This document shows, piece by piece, positions 1 to 39,960 of a stretch of 59,236 bases of DNA; the first letter of the stretch is position 1; every line of letters begins with the position of its first letter. Below the pieces are notes generated by a model. That model was given only the letters and a program-made list of their open reading frames with translations, made no database searches and was not told the origin of the DNA. Source of the DNA: Candidatus Iainarchaeum sp. (GTDB lineage Archaea; Iainarchaeota; Iainarchaeia; Iainarchaeales; VGJJ01); contig JACQJG010000017.1 of the NCBI GenBank assembly GCA_016198125.1, positions 1-59,236 of the forward strand, written 5' to 3'. The translations under genes and the position numbers were made by a program.

Positions 1-1821
1 ACGCGTTCCTGTAAACGCGCCGGTACTTGGATTGTAAGGGTATTTTTCAATGATTGGACAGGCTTTCCAATTCGTGTTGGTACCCGGGTCATGCAAAAAA
101 TAATCCGTGCCCCCCTTCCAATCATTAATTTCAACCGTGGTGGATGCGGGAGGGGCAAAAGAGCCTGCATAAGGGTCTTCAGCTCCTTCTTCTTTTTGGT
201 TTGTATTTGGTTTTCCCTGTTCCAAAAGTCGGTTGCTGCAAATGTATTCAGATGAGCTTGTGCTAAGCATATAGTTGGGAATCCAATAGCCAAACCAGTC
301 GGGCAACAATCCTTTTGAATAGGTGTGAGCGGCAACCATGGCATCTTGGGTTTTATTCCATGTTTTTCCGCCTGCGGTTGTTGGGTACATGAGGTTTGCC
401 TGGTCTTTGGCATGCCCTAACCCAAGGGCGTGTCCAAGTTCATGGGCAAAGGACGTTTGAGTCTTAGGATTATCGAAGACCCAACTGTGCGTTTGCTGAT
501 TGTAATAAGCGCTTTGCGAATAATTGACTATGATGTATTTGTAGGATCCGTTAAAAAGGATGAACGTGGGGGCGTTCAAGGGGTTTTTTGGGTCATTTAC
601 TATGTCAACCAATATAACGGGTATGTGTCCAGGGTTTGTTTCAATCAACTGAGTCATTTTGGCGTTCAGTAGACTGATTGATTGCGGGTTTCCATAGTCC
701 ATTCCGAGGAGTTTTTTGGAAACCACCTTGTTTTGGCCTGCCTGAATGCTAACAATGTACATGGAAAGGCCCCACTCGCCGGCCTCGTTCTCATTCAAGT
801 TTAATATGGAATGACCCGTGTTAATGACCGGAGGATCATACGGGTAGTTTTTTCCTGCTTCTTGCAGGATGGCGGGGGACCCATTAATCGTAGATGAGAG
901 ATTTGCGTTTTTGCTTTCAACATCCCATACATTTCCGGGAATGGGGGTGGTGTCTGCATCCATATTAAAAACAATTACAGGCCCAAACGAGGCCTCGCTG
1001 GTGCCAGCAAATTGGGTTTGGGCATTTGGAGGCAGAAGAGTGTAAACGCTTGAATAATATTCCCGCATTACTTCATCAAATGGCCTTGAATCGTCTGGCG
1101 TGTAATGGGAGAGGTTTCCATGCTCATCTGAGAACCCAATTACGCGAAAGGTCTTGCCTGTTTCCACGAGCGCGTCTGTTTCACTCAAGTCCACTTCTAT
1201 TGCCAAAGCGCTGTTTAAAAATTCCTTTACTAGAACAGGGTCTTGTGCTCCGTCCGTTCTGTAAAGGTAAACACTTGCTCCTTTAACGCGGCGGTCGTCT
1301 GTTAGTAAAACAGTGTTATCTTTTCTTTCTGCCTTAGGGGGTGTTTTGTCTATGGACACCTGTATTTTACTTTCATATATGCGGTCAGAAGTAGTAACGC
1401 TGAACACGAGGCTGTGAAGCCCATTTTCCAACCATAACGAGAAAGGAGTGGGCGCCCCCCAGACAAGGACTCGGGTGGTTTCACTGCTTTGTGGCAAGGC
1501 TTCGAAGTAACTGTTCTTTTCTGCCCCATCCACGGCCAGTTGGACCGATTCAATGCGTTGGGTGGATGGAATTACAAGGGACATGACTCCATAAGAGAGG
1601 TCATCTCCAAGTCCAATAAGATTGACTTCGGTCTGCGAAAACCCATCAGCATTCAATGGCTCCACTGGTTTTGATGGCGTTGCCTCCAAAGGGGGTTGTA
1701 CTGCAGTATTGGTCGTCGATGAAACACTTAGGCCACTAAGATTGAATTGAGTTACCCACACTCCCAAACCTGCAGCCAGGACAAGCAAAAAAATTCCAAA
1801 AATTATTTGCGCCTGCCGCAT
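1..1821 (-). CDS. Secreted matrixin-like zinc metalloprotease (C-terminus cut by window edge)
   Basis: An uninterrupted reading frame of 607 codons runs from ATG at 1821 to the left edge. The N-terminus (MRQAQIIFGIFLLVLAAGLG) is a signal peptide or membrane anchor, so the protein acts outside the cell. Residues 460-470 read HELGHALGLGH, the metzincin zinc-binding motif HExxHxxGxxH, and NLMYP follows about ten residues later as the Met-turn. This is the signature of family M10 (matrixins). About 300 residues of probable beta-sandwich or adhesive sequence lie before the catalytic domain. The start lies 29 bp after the stop of the beta-propeller gene on the same strand, so the two may be co-transcribed. 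The substrate is unknown. The stop codon lies outside the window. Confidence 0.85.
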   Translation of the reverse strand, partial: MRQAQIIFGIFLLVLAAGLGVWVTQFNLSGLSVSSTTNTAVQPPLEATPSKPVEPLNADGFSQTEVNLIGLGDDLSYGVMSLVIPSTQRIESVQLAVDGAEKNSYFEALPQSSETTRVLVWGAPTPFSLWLENGLHSLVFSVTTSDRIYESKIQVSIDKTPPKAERKDNTVLLTDDRRVKGASVYLYRTDGAQDPVLVKEFLNSALAIEVDLSETDALVETGKTFRVIGFSDEHGNLSHYTPDDSRPFDEVMREYYSSVYTLLPPNAQTQFAGTSEASFGPVIVFNMDADTTPIPGNVWDVESKNANLSSTINGSPAILQEAGKNYPYDPPVINTGHSILNLNENEAGEWGLSMYIVSIQAGQNKVVSKKLLGMDYGNPQSISLLNAKMTQLIETNPGHIPVILVDIVNDPKNPLNAPTFILFNGSYKYIIVNYSQSAYYNQQTHSWVFDNPKTQTSFAHELGHALGLGHAKDQANLMYPTTAGGKTWNKTQDAMVAAHTYSKGLLPDWFGYWIPNYMLSTSSSEYICSNRLLEQGKPNTNQKEEGAEDPYAGSFAPPASTTVEINDWKGGTDYFLHDPGTNTNWKACPIIEKYPYNPSTGAFTGTR

Positions 1822-1850
1822 TAGAATGGTCACCTTCTAATTTTTAAAAA

Positions 1851-3185
1851 TTAATTACTTAACGAAGTGTATAGTCCTACAAAGCCATCTACGTCAATTG
1901 CATCGCACTGCCAGGAACCTTGGGAACCACAGTTCCCCCCAGACCCCACACTGTATGCCAATTTCAAATCCAAATTTGTTTGATCAAAATAACTGATGTA
2001 AAAATTGCCAGATTCCTGTACTAATGAATTGTATTCTCCTACATTGCCCGCGACATCAATGGCTTCACACTGCCATATTCCAAAGCTGGTTTGCCCTCCG
2101 CTTCCAGTGAAACTACCGCAGTTTCCTCCGCTTCCCACGCGGTGAGCTAACTTTAAATCGTTATTTACCGGGTCGTAATAGCTTACATAAGGGATGCCTG
2201 TACTGGGATCAACGGTAAGTGAAATATTCGAGTTATAGTTAGTATACAAATCAGCATCAATAAGCTCGCACTTCCAAGTGTTTTGAGGGCCACAATTACC
2301 TCCAACCCCAACTCCCACGTTATAAGCGATTTTTAATGCAACTGCGTTTGCGTCAACGTCCTCCTCAATATAAGCAACATAAGGTTTACTTCCATAGGAT
2401 GTAATAGAAGTAGACTTACCATTTGAAAGGGGCTTAATAAGGTCACATTGCCAAGAATTCTGAGGACCACAATTGCCAGTAAATATTCCCACTTTATGGG
2501 CGACTCTTAAATCTCCACCGGGGACCCCTCCCGGTTTTGGTTTAATATAACTTATATATGGGACTCCTTGAAAAATGATTGCTAATGAAAGGTAGGGGTT
2601 ATTGTCGAGTAGAGGTGTTAAAGTTAAAGTGTCAATTACATCACACTGCCAAGAACCCTGCGGACCACAATTACCCCCAGTTCCAACCTCATAAGCAATT
2701 TTTATATTATGAGAAAAAATGTCATAATAGCTGATGTAGGGCGTGTTCCCCAAAAACGCTAAAGAACTATAACTTCCAACATCTGCCTGCCCTGCAGATC
2801 CTGGCGGTTCATCTATTGTAATACATGAAAAACGGCCGCCTCCACAGTTGCCGCCGGCTCCAACTTTCTTGGCCAATTTTAAATCTGCATTTGTTGCGTC
2901 ATAATAACTAATATAAGGATCCCCTTGGGGAGAAACGGCAATAGAGGTATATAGACCTGTATTGCCTTGAGAGTCGATAACATCAATATTCCAGCGCGAC
3001 ACTGGTGTGGCAGTATATTTGGCGTATTTCAAATCCAGTGCGGGGCTTAATTTATGGTAACTGATATGCAAGGGGATGGAAGGCGTTACCACTTTTCCAG
3101 TGGTTGAAATGAAAGGGACCAAATAAAGAAAGGCTACAACCCCCATAAAAAGAAGCACGACGAGTAAGACCCACTCTTTTTTCAT
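1851..3185 (-). CDS. Secreted seven-bladed beta-propeller repeat protein
   Basis: The protein is about 444 residues. A hydrophobic N-terminal segment (KKEWVLLVVLLFMGVVAF) is followed by six full repeats of about 55 residues. The repeat core is Y-x-S-[IL]-x(6-9)-PY[IV]SYYD-x(4)-LK[IL]A-x-x-VG-x-GGNCG-x-W-x-C-x-x-ID. The mature N-terminus holds only the second half of a blade (ending WNIDVID) and the C-terminus only the first strand (GLYTSLSN). Together they would close a seventh blade in the Velcro manner typical of beta-propellers. Most blades carry two Cys that could pair outside the cell. ATG 3185 is preferred over the GTG at 3194 because a TATA box lies 26 nt upstream. It may be a binding or surface protein; no enzymatic motif is visible. 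Base composition is more AT-rich than in most neighbours. Confidence 0.8.
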   Translation of the reverse strand: MKKEWVLLVVLLFMGVVAFLYLVPFISTTGKVVTPSIPLHISYHKLSPALDLKYAKYTATPVSRWNIDVIDSQGNTGLYTSIAVSPQGDPYISYYDATNADLKLAKKVGAGGNCGGGRFSCITIDEPPGSAGQADVGSYSSLAFLGNTPYISYYDIFSHNIKIAYEVGTGGNCGPQGSWQCDVIDTLTLTPLLDNNPYLSLAIIFQGVPYISYIKPKPGGVPGGDLRVAHKVGIFTGNCGPQNSWQCDLIKPLSNGKSTSITSYGSKPYVAYIEEDVDANAVALKIAYNVGVGVGGNCGPQNTWKCELIDADLYTNYNSNISLTVDPSTGIPYVSYYDPVNNDLKLAHRVGSGGNCGSFTGSGGQTSFGIWQCEAIDVAGNVGEYNSLVQESGNFYISYFDQTNLDLKLAYSVGSGGNCGSQGSWQCDAIDVDGFVGLYTSLSN

Positions 3186-3207: not shown

Positions 3208-3215
3208 TTTATAAA
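3208..3215 (-). promoter_or_regulatory. TATA box of the beta-propeller gene
   Basis: TTTATAAA is centred about 26 nt upstream of ATG 3185. This predicts a leaderless transcript. Confidence 0.55.
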
Positions 3216-3224
3216 CCTTTGGCC

Positions 3225-3331
3225 GGCTCTGTTGACTTTTTTTACAAAGAGTCTCAAAATGGAAAATGAACCACCGGCATTCGCCAAAGATTCTTGTTTT
3301 ACCAATCCATTCGGAGGATTTCAACAGAGCC
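3225..3331. repeat. 107-bp element bounded by 11-bp perfect inverted repeats
   Basis: GGCTCTGTTGA at 3225-3235 is matched exactly by its reverse complement TCAACAGAGCC at 3321-3331. The element fills most of the gap between the propeller gene promoter and the geranylgeranyl reductase stop. The terminal sequence recalls the GGxxCTGTTG ends of IS6-like insertion sequences, so a MITE or deletion remnant is possible. A long RNA hairpin is the alternative. No transposase is recognisable inside. Confidence 0.5.
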
Positions 3332-15968: not shown

Positions 15969-18900
15969 TCACTTCCCCCAGCTTGCAATCAAACCAAACA
16001 AGCCCGAAATAGGCGTAAAGGGTTGAAGCGCATTCTTTGTGTACAACGGGCATGCAAGCACTGTATTTCCCTGTGCGTCCACCACTTCCCTGCACCCTGG
16101 CAGTTTGGGCGAGGCATATGCAACCCCCATTCTTGGCTTTGCGCCCACGGTTGCTGTTGTGCCTGTGGGGGCTTCCAATTCTTCAAGCAAAGGCCCTGTA
16201 CAATCTTCTTCAAATGTTTCAATGCCCAGGTTTCCTTCCGTGTAATTTGCAGTCCTGCAGTTCATGCCTGTTCCATCATCGCGTTGAATGTGGTACAGGC
16301 ATTGTCCTTCTGAAAGGCCTTCAATGGTCCCCGTGTAAACGCCGTCAGATTGTGCGGTTGAAACATTGGCCCCGGACCTGCATGTTTGCAAGTGGCCTTC
16401 AAAGCAGGCCAAATCATCGGGCGCGCATGCAAGGCTTTGACTGGTGCTTTGAGGGGAGGCCAGCATAAGGCCCAAGGCGCGCTGTACCAATTCTTTTACT
16501 CCCACTAAGCGCGTGGCAAATCCTGCGGCCTGGTCCTTGGAAACTCCAGAGGCAAGGCTGTCCTTGATTTCACCCTGCAATGAACGCACTTCCTGCAAGG
16601 CAACCGTGAACTGTTTGGCCGCGCTTTCAAAGTCATGGGCCCTTGAAGGATTTGTTTCTGTCCAATAAATCTGCAAACCCGTGACCTTGAGAGCGGCATC
16701 GTTTAACTTGGTTTCAAGGTCCAAAAGCACCTGGGCCCACTCCAATAATTCGGCAGTAGAAGGCGGTTCCCGTACCACGGCCACTTCTTCTCCTCTCCCG
16801 CTTGTTACACAATAACTGAACGTGATACACCCCTCCGCGCCCGTGAGCACTGAAAGCTGGCCGCCGGCCAACGCACATTGCTCGGCTGCTTCTTTTGGGG
16901 CTTCCTTGGCGCATGAAGTGCCTGCCGTGCTTCTGTCCACGCATGTTAGAACTCCGCACCCTTTGGAATCAAATTGCTCCGTCAAAAGGCCGCCCTGGAC
17001 TGCACAATCCTGTTGCAGCTTTTCATAGTCTCCCACGCTGTGTTTTGGGCACGCATACTGTTCTCCAGGCTCCTGGCACGTTACAGACTTGCACCCGTCC
17101 TTGGTTTCGATGTAGGCCTTGTATCTCTGGGCCTCGCATACGTCAACGACTTTGAAGAGCGTGGCAGGAGCCGGGCACTCGAATTTCTTTTCTTCAAACA
17201 ACCCTGTAGTGTCCTTTCCGGTTAGGTTTTGCCCAAAGTCGCACCATGTATACGCACACACTCCATAAGTGGATTTCTTTGGCGTTCCCCCATAGGAAAG
17301 GCACTGGGATTCCATCAACGGATCCGAGGGCGGGCATTGCGAGGGATCGGTGTACACGCTTTCCTTTGTGCACACGTAAGAGGAACCGCCAGTCACGGCA
17401 TCTTTTACGGGTTCACAATGAACCTGCTGTTCAGTGGAATCAAAAACCGGTTTAACGTCCATGAACAGGCATCCATTTGTGCCCAGTTTGAGGTCTGCTT
17501 TCATGCCCAAGGCCTCTGCTTTGGTCTTCAATTCCTCCAATTGCGCAGGCGTGGGGCACACCGCAATGGGTTCCGGGAATGGAAGGGGCGTTACCACTGC
17601 ACAGTCATTCGCACACGTAAACTCGCCCCCGTTAAACTCGCCTGCATTGCAAATTCCATCCCCGCAGATCCCGGGTTTACAGTCCGTAGGGCAGGAAGTT
17701 TGGCTTTCGCTTAAACTGCACACATAATCCCCGCAAAATGTTTGCTTGCAGTCCACGGAACACGTGGTGGGGCTTTCTCCTAAAACGTATTCGCACAACC
17801 CATTGCCACAGTCCTTGGCTGTATTGGTCTTGCAATCACCTGGACACGATGCACTGGTTTCACCGTTGCTTGCATCGCAGATAAAGTTGCCGCACAAATT
17901 GGTGGCAGGCTTACAATCGCTTGGGCACGTACTGGTGCTTTCGCCTGCTTCACAAATGGCATTGCCGCACGTGGCAGTCCCAGTGGTGGTGCAATTAGAG
18001 GAAGGGTAAAGCGTGCAATAGGACTGCGTTGCACCATACTGCGAAGAAGGCGTGCACCACGTGGCGCCAACCACACTGCATTCCTGGGGTGTATAACACG
18101 CCCACGTGTTCTGTGAATCGCATTTTTGGCAGGGAGAAGTAGAGCACCAGGCATTGTAACCGGAACCGCAAAAGTTTCCTCCAGCGGCTTTACAGGTGTC
18201 CGCATTATAGCATGCCCACAACTGGTTAGAACTGCAGGTGGTGGGAACATAATCCTTTGAAAAACATGAAGAGTACGTGGTGCTTGATTGCAACCACTGC
18301 CCGCCTACACCTTTGCAAGAGGTCTCATCATAGCAATTCCAGTAATTGTCGGACGTGCATTTTGGGCAATAACCCTTTTGATTACAATACCCCGTTTGCC
18401 CGCCATACGTGCTTCCGCTGGACTTGCACCACTCGTTTCCAGCCGATGTGCATGCACTTTCAGTGTAACAGTTTCCAGGCGAGGTAGACGAGCACACGGG
18501 GCACGGGCTGGAATTGCCTTGGCACCAGCCGCTTCCATACCCGCCGGAGGTACACCAATTGCCGTTTCCAGTGGCAGTACAACTTGCCTGGTCATAGCAA
18601 TTAAACGGGTTTGCCGCTGAACACGTGTTGGGCGGAGGCTGGTACCCGCAATCTGTCTGGCATGACGTACTGGTTTCCCCTGCATCACAAATGTAATTTC
18701 CGCAATACCCGGTTCCTCCTCCCCCAGAAGAACAGTCGCTGGGACAGGAAATATAGGTTTCACCGCTTTCACACGTTTTGTTTCCGCACGTGGAACTGCC
18801 CCCGCTTGGACATGAGCTGCTTAAACAATAAGGCACGGTAGTGTTTTGGGTGCACCAGTTTGCTCCTGCGCCTTTGCACGCGGGTTCCGTGTAACAATTC

Positions 18901-20723
18901 CACGGACTCGAGGAATTGCACACCGGGCAGGAACTGGTTGAACATCCTGCACTACTGCCCCACTGGCACCAGTTTGCCCCAACGCCCTTGCATTCGGTTT
19001 CCGTGGTGCACGCATACGTGTTGTTCGGCGAGCACGTTGGACAGGCAACGGTCTGACAGTAACCCCCGCCACCGCTGTATGAACACCAGTAAGCCTTTCC
19101 TGTGTTAGTGCAACTTGTCTGGTCCGTGCAATTCCCTGGACTGGTACTTGAACACGTGGGGCAAGAGCTTGAACAATAGCTTCCACACCATTGGCCTCCC
19201 GCAGCCGTGCATCCACTTTGACTATAACAACCGCTAAAACCGGTGCCGCTAGCAGTACAATCCGGGCAACTTGAAGGAGTAGTACAATACGGGGTCTGGA
19301 CGTTCAAGCACCACTTGCCCCCATACTGGGAACACTGGGTTTGCGGGCAAGAGTAAAGATTGGTTGAAGAGCAACTGCTGCCTCCCCCGCAGTCTCCAGG
19401 GCACGAAGAAGTGGTTTCACCTGAATCGCACACGTAGTTTCCGCAGTACCCGCTGCTCCCCCCGCACGCCGATTGGGTGGAAGAACACCAACTGCCGCAC
19501 CAAAACAATCCAGACCCTGTGCATGTAGCCTGAGTGATGCACCCGGAAGGATTGGATTGAGAACACTCAGAGCTGCTCCCACACTGGTAATCAGGCGAGG
19601 CGCAGAAATTGGTGTTTGAACACCATTTACAGCCGCCGGCCGTGCACGTGCTGCTCGAATAATAATTGCACGAGCTTCCGCCACCTGTGCAACTGTAGGT
19701 GGGTGAATGGCAGGCATTGTCGCTAGTACACCATTTTCCTCCAACTCCCGTGCAGGCAGATTGCGTGGTACACCCCCAGTAATTGGACGAAGAACAGGTG
19801 TTGCTACTCGTGCAACTTGCACTGGAAGAAAAACAATATCCGGACGGGTAAACGTTGTTCACGCACCAATAACCCCCAACCCCCGTGCAGTTGGGGCCGG
19901 TCAAGCAGGCAGGGTAATTCGTGGAAGAGCAATTGCCACCGGTTCCACCCCCGCAGTTGTTGCTGGTGGCATAAGAAGAATAACAATAGTTTTGGGTTGC
20001 ACACCAATACCCGTTCACTGCTGATTGGGTGCAAGTGGCCTGCGTGAGGCATGCTCCAGGATTGGATGCAGAACAACTGGTGCTGCTGCATGGATTGCTT
20101 GCCTGCGTGGCATAACACAAATTGGTTTGAGAGCACCAGAACAGTCCGGCGGCCGCGCACTGGGATTGGGTGCACGCACTCGCATTGGAAGAAGAACAGG
20201 TTTGTTGGGTTTCCGAGCACCACCCGCCAGTGCCGCTGCTATATGGGTTCCAAAAACCCCCGTTGGACGTGCACTCTGTCTGGTTGTTGCAACTGCTCAC
20301 AGAATAAGAACAGTAATTGTTGCACCATTTTCCCCCAACGCCTTGGCACTGGGCTTGTGTAGTGCAATAACTCGTGTACTGGCTTGAACACGTGTACCCG
20401 CAGTCGCTTGGGCACGTGGAACTGGTTTCAAAAGAAGAATAACACGTTCCGTCTCCACAATAACCGCAATTCAATCCTTCCTTGCAATGCCCCAAATAAT
20501 ACTGGGCCGCACAGTCATTTGTAGTGGAAGTGCACTGGCCGCTCTGGCAGGTCGCATACTTGGAAACCGTGGGGCTTTGACAAGACCATGAAGGGCCACA
20601 ATCCGCATCCGTTGTGCACGCCTGCGCGCTGGCAGAGGATGCAAGCGCGATAAAAGACAGGGCCAGAAGGCCTGCCCAGAAAAGGGCGCGTATACTGTGC
20701 AGATTAACTGTTTTGCCACTCAT
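15969..20723 (-). CDS. Giant secreted Cys-rich repeat protein (1584 aa)
   Basis: A signal peptide (IRALFWAGLLALSFIALASS, cleavage near SASAQA) is followed by a region with about 19 imperfect repeats of about 35-50 residues, spanning roughly residues 100-870. The repeat pattern is C[ST]SxxxxxC-x(4)-C-x(3)-GGxWC with a variable Ser/Gly/Thr-rich loop. Interspersed, and then clustered near residues 880-1010, are modules CGN-x-x-C-x-x-GE-x(4)-CPxDC. The C-terminal third has fewer Cys and a helical stretch (EWAQVLLDLETKLND), with no clear membrane anchor. Dozens of Cys suggest a disulfide-locked surface fibre or coat. It heads a three-gene surface cluster. No enzymatic motif is seen. Confidence 0.8.
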   Translation of the reverse strand: MSGKTVNLHSIRALFWAGLLALSFIALASSASAQACTTDADCGPSWSCQSPTVSKYATCQSGQCTSTTNDCAAQYYLGHCKEGLNCGYCGDGTCYSSFETSSTCPSDCGYTCSSQYTSYCTTQAQCQGVGGKWCNNYCSYSVSSCNNQTECTSNGGFWNPYSSGTGGWCSETQQTCSSSNASACTQSQCAAAGLFWCSQTNLCYATQASNPCSSTSCSASNPGACLTQATCTQSAVNGYWCATQNYCYSSYATSNNCGGGTGGNCSSTNYPACLTGPNCTGVGGYWCVNNVYPSGYCFSSSASCTSSNTCSSSNYWGCTTQSACTGVGGKWCTSDNACHSPTYSCTGGGSSCNYYSSSTCTAGGCKWCSNTNFCASPDYQCGSSSECSQSNPSGCITQATCTGSGLFWCGSWCSSTQSACGGSSGYCGNYVCDSGETTSSCPGDCGGGSSCSSTNLYSCPQTQCSQYGGKWCLNVQTPYCTTPSSCPDCTASGTGFSGCYSQSGCTAAGGQWCGSYCSSSCPTCSSTSPGNCTDQTSCTNTGKAYWCSYSGGGGYCQTVACPTCSPNNTYACTTETECKGVGANWCQWGSSAGCSTSSCPVCNSSSPWNCYTEPACKGAGANWCTQNTTVPYCLSSSCPSGGSSTCGNKTCESGETYISCPSDCSSGGGGTGYCGNYICDAGETSTSCQTDCGYQPPPNTCSAANPFNCYDQASCTATGNGNWCTSGGYGSGWCQGNSSPCPVCSSTSPGNCYTESACTSAGNEWCKSSGSTYGGQTGYCNQKGYCPKCTSDNYWNCYDETSCKGVGGQWLQSSTTYSSCFSKDYVPTTCSSNQLWACYNADTCKAAGGNFCGSGYNAWCSTSPCQKCDSQNTWACYTPQECSVVGATWCTPSSQYGATQSYCTLYPSSNCTTTGTATCGNAICEAGESTSTCPSDCKPATNLCGNFICDASNGETSASCPGDCKTNTAKDCGNGLCEYVLGESPTTCSVDCKQTFCGDYVCSLSESQTSCPTDCKPGICGDGICNAGEFNGGEFTCANDCAVVTPLPFPEPIAVCPTPAQLEELKTKAEALGMKADLKLGTNGCLFMDVKPVFDSTEQQVHCEPVKDAVTGGSSYVCTKESVYTDPSQCPPSDPLMESQCLSYGGTPKKSTYGVCAYTWCDFGQNLTGKDTTGLFEEKKFECPAPATLFKVVDVCEAQRYKAYIETKDGCKSVTCQEPGEQYACPKHSVGDYEKLQQDCAVQGGLLTEQFDSKGCGVLTCVDRSTAGTSCAKEAPKEAAEQCALAGGQLSVLTGAEGCITFSYCVTSGRGEEVAVVREPPSTAELLEWAQVLLDLETKLNDAALKVTGLQIYWTETNPSRAHDFESAAKQFTVALQEVRSLQGEIKDSLASGVSKDQAAGFATRLVGVKELVQRALGLMLASPQSTSQSLACAPDDLACFEGHLQTCRSGANVSTAQSDGVYTGTIEGLSEGQCLYHIQRDDGTGMNCRTANYTEGNLGIETFEEDCTGPLLEELEAPTGTTATVGAKPRMGVAYASPKLPGCREVVDAQGNTVLACPLYTKNALQPFTPISGLFGLIASWGK
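18100..20426 (-). repeat. Tandem Cys-rich repeat block inside the giant surface protein
   Basis: There are about 19 diverged units, each beginning CSS/CSA/CTS and ending GGxWC, with recurring gcaccatttgcc-like sense. The repeats are clear in protein but only partly in DNA, so the array is old rather than freshly amplified. Boundaries are approximate. Confidence 0.7.
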
Positions 20724-37530: not shown

Positions 37531-38127
37531 ATGTTCAAAATGCTGATGGTTTTTGGTTTGATTTCAAGTTTGGCGCTTGCAGGATGCGTTTCCACGCAAA
37601 CCCAGGCAGGAGACACTGTTCAGCCGGATGGAACAATCGCCAAAGCCGATGGCACCCTGGTAAAGCCGGACGGGACGATGATTAAGCCGGATGGAACCAT
37701 GGTCAAACCAGACGGCACCATGATTGGGCCTGATGGGAAAATGGTTGACACGGGAAGCGGAATTGCAGGTGTGCAAGGCGTTCCCTATGTTCCATTCACC
37801 CAGGCTGCATATGACCAGGCCAAGGCCCAGAGCAAAGTTATTTTCCTGGAATTTTACGCGAACTGGTGTCCTACATGCAAAGTGCAGGAACCCATTTTGG
37901 AAGACGCCTTTGCAACTGCCTCATTTGACAATGCGACTGCATTCCGCGTGAACTACAATGATACTGAAACAGATGCCGACGAGCAAAACCTGGCCAAACA
38001 GTTCGGGGTCATATACCAGCACACGCACATTATATTGGATGCGCAAGGCAGCGTGGCCAAAAAGTCGCAGGAAATGTGGGACAAGCAAGCGGTTCTGGCT
38101 GAGCTGGGCACGGTAGCAGGCGCGTGA
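37531..38127 (+). CDS. Thioredoxin-domain lipoprotein with PDGT heptad repeats
   Basis: The protein has 198 residues. The signal peptide ends in the lipobox ALAGC (Cys19). Residues 30-71 hold six heptads of the form VKPDGTM, probably a spacer from the membrane. A thioredoxin domain follows, with FLEFYANWCPTCKVQE (C113, C116), then a cis-Pro position replaced in the YQHTHIILD segment. It is an extracytoplasmic thiol-disulfide protein. ccdA starts 7 bp later and the DipZ-like gene follows, so it is probably reduced by CcdA. AGGAGTGGGAGG stands upstream of the start. Confidence 0.85.
   Translation: MFKMLMVFGLISSLALAGCVSTQTQAGDTVQPDGTIAKADGTLVKPDGTMIKPDGTMVKPDGTMIGPDGKMVDTGSGIAGVQGVPYVPFTQAAYDQAKAQSKVIFLEFYANWCPTCKVQEPILEDAFATASFDNATAFRVNYNDTETDADEQNLAKQFGVIYQHTHIILDAQGSVAKKSQEMWDKQAVLAELGTVAGA
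37618..37743 (+). repeat. Six tandem 21-nt coding repeats (PDGT heptads)
   Basis: The units encode VQPDGTI, AKADGTL, VKPDGTM, IKPDGTM, VKPDGTM and IGPDGKM. DNA copies are similar (gccggatggaac-type cores), so copy number could vary by slippage. Confidence 0.75.
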
Positions 38128-38134
38128 AAGGAAA

Positions 38135-38851
38135 ATGGCTGAAGTAACCTTGGTGTTTGCGTTCATTGCAGGACTTGTTTCTTTTTTAAGTCCATGCGTG
38201 CTTCCCCTGGTCCCGGCATTCCTAACGTTTCTTGCCGGAACAACCCTGGATGAGGCAAAAGAAAATTTTTCCCATGCGCGTGTTAAAATATTCTTGAGCA
38301 GCGTGTTTTTTGTCCTTGGCTTCTCCATTGTTTTTTCAGTGTTGGGCGTGCTCCTCCAAAGCGTGCTGTCAAGTGTTGCCTATGATGTTAGAACGTATTT
38401 GGGGTATGTGGGGGGCATTCTCATCATTTTCTTTGGACTCGTGTTGATGGGCATTATCAAAATCCCGGCCCTCATGGGCGAGCACACGTTCAAAGTCAAA
38501 TCCGACAGAGCATCATACTTTACTTCTTTTCTTTTTGGAGCTGCATTCGCGGCAGGGTGGACGCCCTGCGTGGGCGCGGTATTGGGTGGAATTCTAACCC
38601 TTGCAGTGACAAACCCTCAAACAGCGTTTCCGCTTATGGTAACCTATTCCCTTGGTTTGGGCGTGCCCTTTTTACTGGTTGGACTTTTTGTATCCCAGTC
38701 AAAGCAAGCCATTAATGCGATTACCCCGCACTTAAAATGGTTGAACATTGTGTTTGGCATCGTCCTCATTATTTTGGGCATATTGGTGTTCACCAACACG
38801 CTTTCCCTGGTGGCCAACCTGGGCTTTTTGAATGACTTGCTGTTAAAGTGA
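38135..38851 (+). CDS. ccdA: CcdA-type thiol-disulfide transporter
   Basis: The protein has 238 residues with six hydrophobic helices. VSFLSPCVLPLVPAFL in helix 1 and FAAGWTPCVGAVLGGIL in helix 4 carry the two conserved Cys and Pro residues of CcdA/DsbD-beta. It passes reducing equivalents from cytoplasmic thioredoxin to outside acceptors. It lies between the thioredoxin lipoprotein and the DipZ-like protein, both likely acceptors, and its stop overlaps the next start. Confidence 0.93.
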   Translation: MAEVTLVFAFIAGLVSFLSPCVLPLVPAFLTFLAGTTLDEAKENFSHARVKIFLSSVFFVLGFSIVFSVLGVLLQSVLSSVAYDVRTYLGYVGGILIIFFGLVLMGIIKIPALMGEHTFKVKSDRASYFTSFLFGAAFAAGWTPCVGAVLGGILTLAVTNPQTAFPLMVTYSLGLGVPFLLVGLFVSQSKQAINAITPHLKWLNIVFGIVLIILGILVFTNTLSLVANLGFLNDLLLK

Positions 38852-39960
38852 TGCGCATGGAATTCAAGCCCAACAATCCAGTGCAGGTGGGCCTGTTATT
38901 GCTCCTGATTATAGGGGGAATTCTTTTCCTGGAATCCACCAAGGCAAAACCGTTGGGGAATGAAAACACCCAAAAAACGCTTGCTGAAAGTGAAAGCGCA
39001 AAAAGATTGCTTTACCCTTCAGCGCCGGAACTGCAGAACATTGCAGGGTACGTTAATGTTCCCCACGGATTTTCTCTTTCGGATGTAAAAGGCAAAGTTA
39101 TTCTGGTGGATTTTTGGACGTATTCCTGCATTAACTGCATTCGCACGCTGCCCTATTTGAAGGCTTGGCACGAACAGTATGCAGACAAGGGCCTTGTAAT
39201 TGTTGGCGTGCACACTCCGGAGTTTGCATTTGAAGAAGAATATGAGAACGTGAAGGCTGCCGTGGAAAAGCAGGGCATTGAATATGCAGTGGTCTTGGAC
39301 AACGAGTATGCCACCTGGAGAGCCTACAAAAACCAGTACTGGCCGCGCAAATATCTTGTTGATGCAGATGGGTTCATACGTTACGACCACATTGGAGAAG
39401 GGGGCTATGAGGAAACAGAAAAAATGATTCAAAAACTCCTGACTGAACGCGATGAAAAGCTAAGTCTTGAAGGCATTGCTTCGGAGGAGATTAATGCTGC
39501 CACAGAGTTCTCAAAAATAGGAACGCCTGAAATTTACCTGGGATACGATTTTGCGCGCGCGCCATTGGGAAATGCGGAAGGGTTTCAACCCAATGAAATT
39601 GTTGTTTATGCGTTGCCTTCCAGCGTTGAAAAAAACCGTGTGTACTTGGAAGGAACTTGGGAAAACCATTCAGACCACGTGCGCCTGGCCTCAGATACCG
39701 GGAAAATTGTACTCAAATATGAAGCGAAGAGCGTGAACATAGTGGCAGGAGGAACTGCACAGGTTGAAGTGGAACCGGGCCAAAGCCCAGGCATAAACGC
39801 TTTGGGAACGGATGCACAAAACGTAAACGGAAAAGCCGTTGTGCAGGTGGCAGGCCAAAAACTTTACAACGTTGTAAGCGACTCAGATTATTTTGAAAAA
39901 ACGCTTACCCTGCACGTGAATGGAAAAGGGTTTGAATTGTACACGTTCACGTTCGGTTAA
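38851..39960 (+). CDS. DipZ-like membrane-anchored thioredoxin with C-terminal beta domain
   Basis: The protein has about 369 residues. One N-terminal helix (VGLLLLLIIGGILFL) anchors it. A TlpA-type thioredoxin domain follows with VDFWTYSCINCIRTLPYL (CINC) and GVHTPEFAFE. The last 170 residues form a beta-rich domain (VYLEGTWENHSDHVRLA), like the C-terminus of mycobacterial DipZ. In DipZ the CcdA part is fused; here it is the separate preceding gene, overlapping by one base (TGATG). GTG 38848 is an alternative start. It is a probable extracytoplasmic disulfide reductase or isomerase. Confidence 0.88.
   Translation: MRMEFKPNNPVQVGLLLLLIIGGILFLESTKAKPLGNENTQKTLAESESAKRLLYPSAPELQNIAGYVNVPHGFSLSDVKGKVILVDFWTYSCINCIRTLPYLKAWHEQYADKGLVIVGVHTPEFAFEEEYENVKAAVEKQGIEYAVVLDNEYATWRAYKNQYWPRKYLVDADGFIRYDHIGEGGYEETEKMIQKLLTERDEKLSLEGIASEEINAATEFSKIGTPEIYLGYDFARAPLGNAEGFQPNEIVVYALPSSVEKNRVYLEGTWENHSDHVRLASDTGKIVLKYEAKSVNIVAGGTAQVEVEPGQSPGINALGTDAQNVNGKAVVQVAGQKLYNVVSDSDYFEKTLTLHVNGKGFELYTFTFG

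Follow-up and report, generated by a model that had tools for sequence, protein, structure and literature searches.

The gene on the minus strand at positions 1851-3185 of the window (the whole stretch of 59,236 nucleotides of Candidatus Iainarchaeum sp. that was analysed) is likely to encode an exported, membrane-anchored seven-bladed propeller that is closed in the order 3+1, is stapled by disulfides in six of its blades, belongs to a family related to the Asp-box propellers, and serves as an extracellular binding scaffold made with a metzincin. In the arrangement that we propose, the N-terminus of the protein would provide the outer strands B, C and D of a split blade and the C-terminus its innermost strand A, and a disulfide would staple the outer C-D hairpin in each of the full blades and be missing from the split one. 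Among the members of the family the tip of that hairpin is filled variously, with a bare Trp, an Asp-box or any of three types of Cys pair. The fold is a known one; what would be new lies in the family, which lacks a Pfam model of its own and appears to have two ring closures and an interchangeable hairpin slot.

Repeats and Strand Order of the Propeller

The open reading frame of the propeller runs without interruption from an ATG start to TAA and specifies 444 amino acids. Four types of strand recur along it, here designated A (as in YTSLAV), B (PYISYYD), C (DLKLA) and D (WQCDVID), and they follow each other in the order B-C-D, then six times A-B-C-D, then a single A. Each type therefore occurs seven times, as in seven four-stranded blades (28 predicted strands). 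The parts of the gene are as follows.

3096-3179, minus strand: N-terminal hydrophobic helix, residues 3-30 (hydropathy; helix in the single-sequence model), probable export signal and membrane anchor
2958-3077, minus strand: N-terminal strands B-C-D of the split blade, residues 37-76, no Cys (model strands 39-45, 51-57 and 65-71)
2784-2957, minus strand: full blade 1, residues 77-134, Cys114/Cys121, Phe replacing Trp (sequence)
2604-2783, minus strand: full blade 2, residues 135-194, Cys173/Cys181 (sequence)
2421-2603, minus strand: full blade 3, residues 195-255, Cys239/Cys247 (sequence)
2244-2420, minus strand: full blade 4, residues 256-314, Cys298/Cys306 (sequence)
2040-2243, minus strand: full blade 5, residues 315-382, Cys356/Cys373, longer loop (sequence)
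1878-2039, minus strand: full blade 6, residues 383-436, Cys419/Cys427 (sequence)
1854-1877, minus strand: C-terminal strand A, GLYTSLSN, residues 437-444, innermost in the split blade (model strand 436-443; stop codon next)

Each of the six full repeats spans 54-68 residues. The 15 pairwise local BLOSUM62 scores among them (63-156, mean 105) are far above chance, since in 3000 shuffled pairs the mean was 23.5 and no score exceeded 61. An earlier note on this DNA, made from the sequence alone, had claimed six full repeats with a seventh blade completed from both chain ends, and the repeats are borne out and the closing role of the C-terminal strand is supported. The N-terminal piece would contribute to the split blade as the note proposed; it is, however, not the half blade described there but three strands (PLHISY, LDLKYA and RWNIDVID, of types B, C and D).

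The split blade scored only 22-37 (its B-C-D strands) against the six full blades of the same protein and a median of 38, with a maximum of 62, against 105 blades of relatives, in comparisons where the extra NCG loop costs gap penalties and 105 candidates raise the maximum relative to six. The full blades average 82-114 among themselves. Because the split blade scores low against its own six while these score high with each other, the sequences are suggestive of a later amplification of the six NCG blades, with the split blade perhaps retaining the plain form of the family. Propellers that arose recently by the multiplication of one blade are well documented (PMC9218822).

Predicted Fold and Its Closest Structural Match

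With an alignment of ten rows (the window propeller and nine stretches from eight relative loci), AlphaFold2 predicted 28 strands spanning residues 39 to 443, at a mean pLDDT of 73.6 and a pTM of 0.80. The single-sequence model failed (pLDDT 36.4, pTM 0.29), which counts against the claim of a fold; the predicted propeller consequently rests on the alignment and on the count of strand types. Structure prediction, the check that the earlier note had named, thus favoured its seven-bladed ring with split-blade closure when the alignment was supplied and failed to do so from the single sequence, and the ring gains further support from the strand counts and from an end-to-end match to lectins.

That match came from VIA-align, by which 984 chains were aligned to the model. 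Among the families that it lists, PLL-family lectins occupied ranks 1-16, covering model residues 36 to 439 or 440, and the best of all was PLL4 (Z 29.2, rmsd 2.8 over 315 residues). As described in PMC6943638, the PLL-family lectins of Photorhabdus are seven-bladed, with four strands A-D in each blade and the A strands lining the cavity. They share with the window propeller the predicted fold, a collinear match and the four strands per blade, and since the VIA alignment is collinear over the whole domain, they probably share the 3+1 strand order of the model as well. The two differ in that the Cys residues of PLL, according to the same source, serve oligomers, whereas those of the window propeller are paired within blades. 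No sequence relation was found between them: identity in the fold alignments is 7-10%, and PLL-family lectins are absent among the PDB sequence matches. The main PDB sequence matches (best E 4.8e-6) were designed TIM barrels, which we rejected as artificial proteins in which a short repeated motif resembles the B-C part of the blade; another match, at E 0.41, is at chance level.

A Widespread Blade Family without a Pfam Model

The blade family occurs widely in bacteria and archaea, and in the scans made it has no Pfam model of its own. No Pfam or NCBIfam family matched the window propeller at E up to 1, and in none of the 13 relatives scanned did a Pfam family exceed its cut-off across the blades, apart from an 18-residue piece of DUF7253 in one of them (locus L003). 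A scan of species genomes gave 15 relative loci, among them loci of Chloroflexota, Armatimonadota, Methanogenium, Ilumatobacteraceae, Deltaproteobacteria, a Euryarchaeota archaeon, WOR-3, and Kaiserbacteria and Giovannonibacteria (the last two of the phylum Patescibacteria). Blade matches were present in 4 of 93 genomes of wider kin, the propeller's own genome included. In two further phyla of that domain, blade queries (E up to 1e-8) detected them in 3 genomes out of 156 and in none out of 301. The propeller looks like an accessory gene, because three genomes of the same taxonomic family (G001-G003) yielded no match to it. Viral contigs gave no pattern match, tblastn searches of phages and plasmids gave no match, and in a non-exhaustive survey of open papers we recognised no description of the blade family.

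Sixteen relatives were segmented with a blade HMM, 11 of them from the 15 loci of the species scan; L008 (which is like L006), L012 (whose frame was not followed through), L014 (with the range and scores of L013) and L015 (a fragment) were left out. Seven blades were found in ten of the 16 and fourteen in four, with fewer hits in L010 and L013; one extra match in L018, beyond the ring at 411-433, was ignored. In the archaeal relatives L018 and L019, and in part in L017 and L022, a Cys-rich module follows the propeller; the protein of L018 has a hydrophobic tail at its end, an anchoring unlike that of the window propeller.

It is at the C-D hairpin that the members of the family differ. Mostly a bare Trp is found there in L002, L003, L004, L006 and L016, the pair C-x4-C in L005, L009, L010, L011, L082 and L083, and YC...WTC, with a spacing of 9-10, in L017, L018, L019, L022 and L023, while among the proteins segmented NCG...WxC is confined to the window propeller. 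In L084 the same hairpin holds Asp-box-like motifs, 6 by a strict and 12 by a relaxed pattern. According to PMC2716378, strands 3 and 4 are joined by the loop that holds the Asp-box, and this is the hairpin where the window propeller has its Cys pair; the window propeller differs from the Asp-box propellers in having no match to the strict motif (S-x-D-x-G-x-T-W). To judge from these sequences, the C-D slot seems to be a place where an Asp-box and a Cys staple can stand in for one another, and L084 is a possible link between the blade family and the Asp-box propellers. The protein of L084 has two groups of blades about 330 residues apart, with Asp-box-like motifs in most blades and no Pfam family over cut-off.

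Cysteine Pairs and Ring Closure

All 12 Cys residues of the window propeller form six pairs at the C-D hairpin, one in each full blade, with none in the split blade or elsewhere in the protein. The claim of a Cys pair in most blades hence holds for six of the seven; the motif that had been given for the full blades, NCG-x-W-x-C, stands as NC...W-x-C in five of the six and fails in the first, which reads NCGGGRFSC, with Phe in place of Trp. The distances between the paired residues in blades 1-6 are 7, 8, 8, 8, 17 and 8 residues, and in the aligned model most of the loops that carry the first Cys of a pair are at pLDDT <50. Paired Cys residues in a propeller are not new in themselves, as there is a plant precedent in CRINKLY4: where PMC4617170 describes them, its extracellular repeats are seven in number, and the two Cys residues of each repeat are believed to be bonded to each other inside the blade, much as in the full blades here. 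The repeats of these plant receptor kinases differ, in the same description, in being RCC1-like, ~39 residues long and three-stranded per blade, with the motif C-x10-C-W-G.

Each of the 16 segmented relatives ends after strand C (chain ends read by eye), and in ten of them (L002, L003, L004, L010, L013, L017, L018, L019, L022 and L023) a Trp-bearing D strand clearly precedes the first full blade; this strand is unclear in L005, L006, L007, L009, L011 and L016, the last of which starts inside the protein. An end after strand C together with an N-terminal D strand indicates a 1+3 closure in the relatives. Judging by the model, the window propeller seems unlike them to close 3+1, by an inner strand and without Cys. 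In five of the relatives, all archaeal (L017, L018, L019, L022 and L023), the N-terminal D strand and the C-terminal C strand carry a single Cys each, and the six blades between them carry two apiece (the first Cys of L019 was located in the residues preceding the first blade-HMM match). On this count a seventh pair would join the two chain ends, and such a split pair could lock the ring covalently. Of the evidence in the sequences, this split is the strongest for disulfide bonding of the pairs, and likewise for ring closure in these five relatives.

The closures 1-3 and 3-1 are both said to be common in nature, and among permutants of WRAP-T and Pizza the 3-1 form was the most resistant to chemical denaturant, in the results that PMC8458387 gives on this point. 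As in that comparison two closures are set side by side here, but WRAP-T and Pizza are designed proteins, whereas in the present case both closures would occur inside one natural blade family. We entertain, with rather less confidence than the propeller itself commands, the idea of a natural closure experiment within one uncatalogued family: the archaeal relatives would lock a 1+3 ring by a split disulfide, while the ends of the window propeller would have been shifted by two strands to an inner 3+1 closure, with the seventh disulfide lost and six kept; the Cys pair would sit in the place of the Asp-box, and the different staples would have replaced each other at the hairpin of strands 3 and 4.

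The chain ends might be taken instead as a sign of truncation or decay, in which the C-terminal B and C strands were lost and the ring was left open, as the window propeller stops right after strand A and all of the segmented relatives continue through strand C. We regard such a loss as improbable: the strands that the C-terminus lacks are the very ones that the N-terminus has in excess, for a total of 28, the reading frame is intact and the next gene follows 29 bp on. It is likewise unlikely, if slightly less so, that the Cys pairs bind metal ions or remain thiols. Their variable spacing (from 7 to 17) and the flexible loop around the first Cys would suit such a role; on the other side are the probable export of the propeller, the other spacings at the same hairpin in relatives, the pair that is split across the chain ends in five of them, and an outward thiol system within the same window. 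The latter consists of genes in a row on the plus strand (37531-39960), whose products are a thioredoxin (CPTC) that has a lipobox, a DsbD_TM protein and a redoxin that is anchored and contains CINC; together they could provide thiol chemistry on the outside. A search of the organism's own genome assembly (0.85 Mb, 71% complete) revealed neither VKOR nor Thioredoxin_4, a point against our reading. We favor disulfides as the state of the six pairs.

A different kind of alternative concerns function. Foldseek aligned the model with 115 chains at E <=0.001, and the five highest ranks (E 1.2e-10 to 3.8e-9, 14-15% identity) were taken by Bacteroides BT3686 and related glycoside hydrolases (GH145). 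A carbohydrate-active enzyme like BT3686, a seven-bladed propeller hydrolase or lyase, might be considered on these grounds, and the blade profile also hit these entries weakly in sequence, below the threshold (E 0.07-0.24). We nevertheless give it only a small chance, since identity does not exceed 15%, the first-stage matches are at the level of the fold, and the PLL lectins are higher by Z. BT3686 differs in addition at the end strands, with model residues 36-416 or 36-423 aligned in three of four VIA rows.

Export, Promoter and the Metzincin Neighbour

The N-terminus of the propeller is hydrophobic (hydropathy averaging as much as 2.88 across 19 residues), and its helix is modelled from the single sequence with residues 1-20 at pLDDT 80-84. 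No Ala-x-Ala cleavage site was seen by eye near it. The protein would accordingly be exported and is probably held in the membrane by the uncleaved helix, so that of the secretion proposed in the earlier note the export is retained and the free release is not. An alternative GTG start, nine bases upstream of the ATG, is possible. The features flanking the propeller gene are the following.

3208-3215, minus strand: TATA-like TTTATAAA, ~26 nt before the ATG (sequence; putative promoter)
1-1833, minus strand: downstream gene for a matrixin-like metzincin (PF00413), cut off by the window edge; its likely ATG, at 1821, lies 29 bp beyond the propeller stop
412-444, minus strand: zinc motif HELGHALGLGH of the metzincin, then LMYP (sequence)

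The position of TTTATAAA fits a leaderless archaeal promoter. A promoter scan with a bacterial model found 5 sites against a shuffle mean of 4.0, which is near the shuffle level, and 5 terminator-like sites against a mean of 2.6. Just upstream of the TATA-like box, at 3225-3331, is an element of 107 bp bounded by perfect terminal inverted repeats of 11 bp. It resembles a small non-autonomous transposon, and a second copy, 87% identical, is present in the same assembly (G000:C1:883-988). The gene at 3345-4523 matches a geranylgeranyl reductase family above its cut-off, with archaeal digeranylgeranylglycerophospholipid reductases below theirs, as would suit an archaeal genome. Elsewhere in the window (15969-20723, minus strand) is a protein of 1584 residues that starts with a signal-like stretch and contains 174 Cys (11%), for which no Pfam family was found at E up to 0.001.

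The adjacent protease gene that had been noted earlier is confirmed as that of the metzincin, which matches PF00413 at 28.6 bits (cut-off 24), has a hydrophobic N-terminus and contains both HExxHxxGxxH and the Met-turn (HELGHALGLGHAKDQANLMYP). These hallmarks of the metzincins (HExxHxxGxxH and LMYP) are shared by the neighbouring gene only, whose product is a protein separate from the propeller. A paralogue of the metzincin, 47% identical, begins another contig of the genome (C12), and no propeller lies beside it in the 6 kb read. There were no metzincin matches in genomes with relatives of the propeller (G061, G069 and G074), and among the 63 loci scanned, many of them overlapping, HExxHxxGxx(H/D) was present in none of the other propeller loci and in only two loci from the protease search. 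The pairing of propeller and metzincin is therefore not a trait of the blade family.

The contigs of the window and of the paralogue (L070) are identical in their first 141 bases (1-141), inside the two metzincin genes, and because of this identity both probably stop at a repeat there. The shared 3' segment might reflect gene conversion or an exchangeable end. On the minus strand of L070, in an ORF ending at base 1, the paralogue reads HEVGHALNLGH, but has NLQYP where the window metzincin has the Met-turn NLMYP.

From its order beside the metzincin gene, the propeller may be made together with the membrane-anchored protease next door, and the two might be partners at the cell surface, where the N-terminal helix would place the propeller. 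Its most likely role is the binding of ligands there, perhaps beside the protease, as a rigid extracellular scaffold with sites between the blades or on the faces of the ring. More generally, these observations point to a widespread family of extracellular propellers that vary in a single hairpin and in where the chain begins and ends. Natural proteins of this kind would make it possible to test how propeller rings are closed and what can replace an Asp-box.
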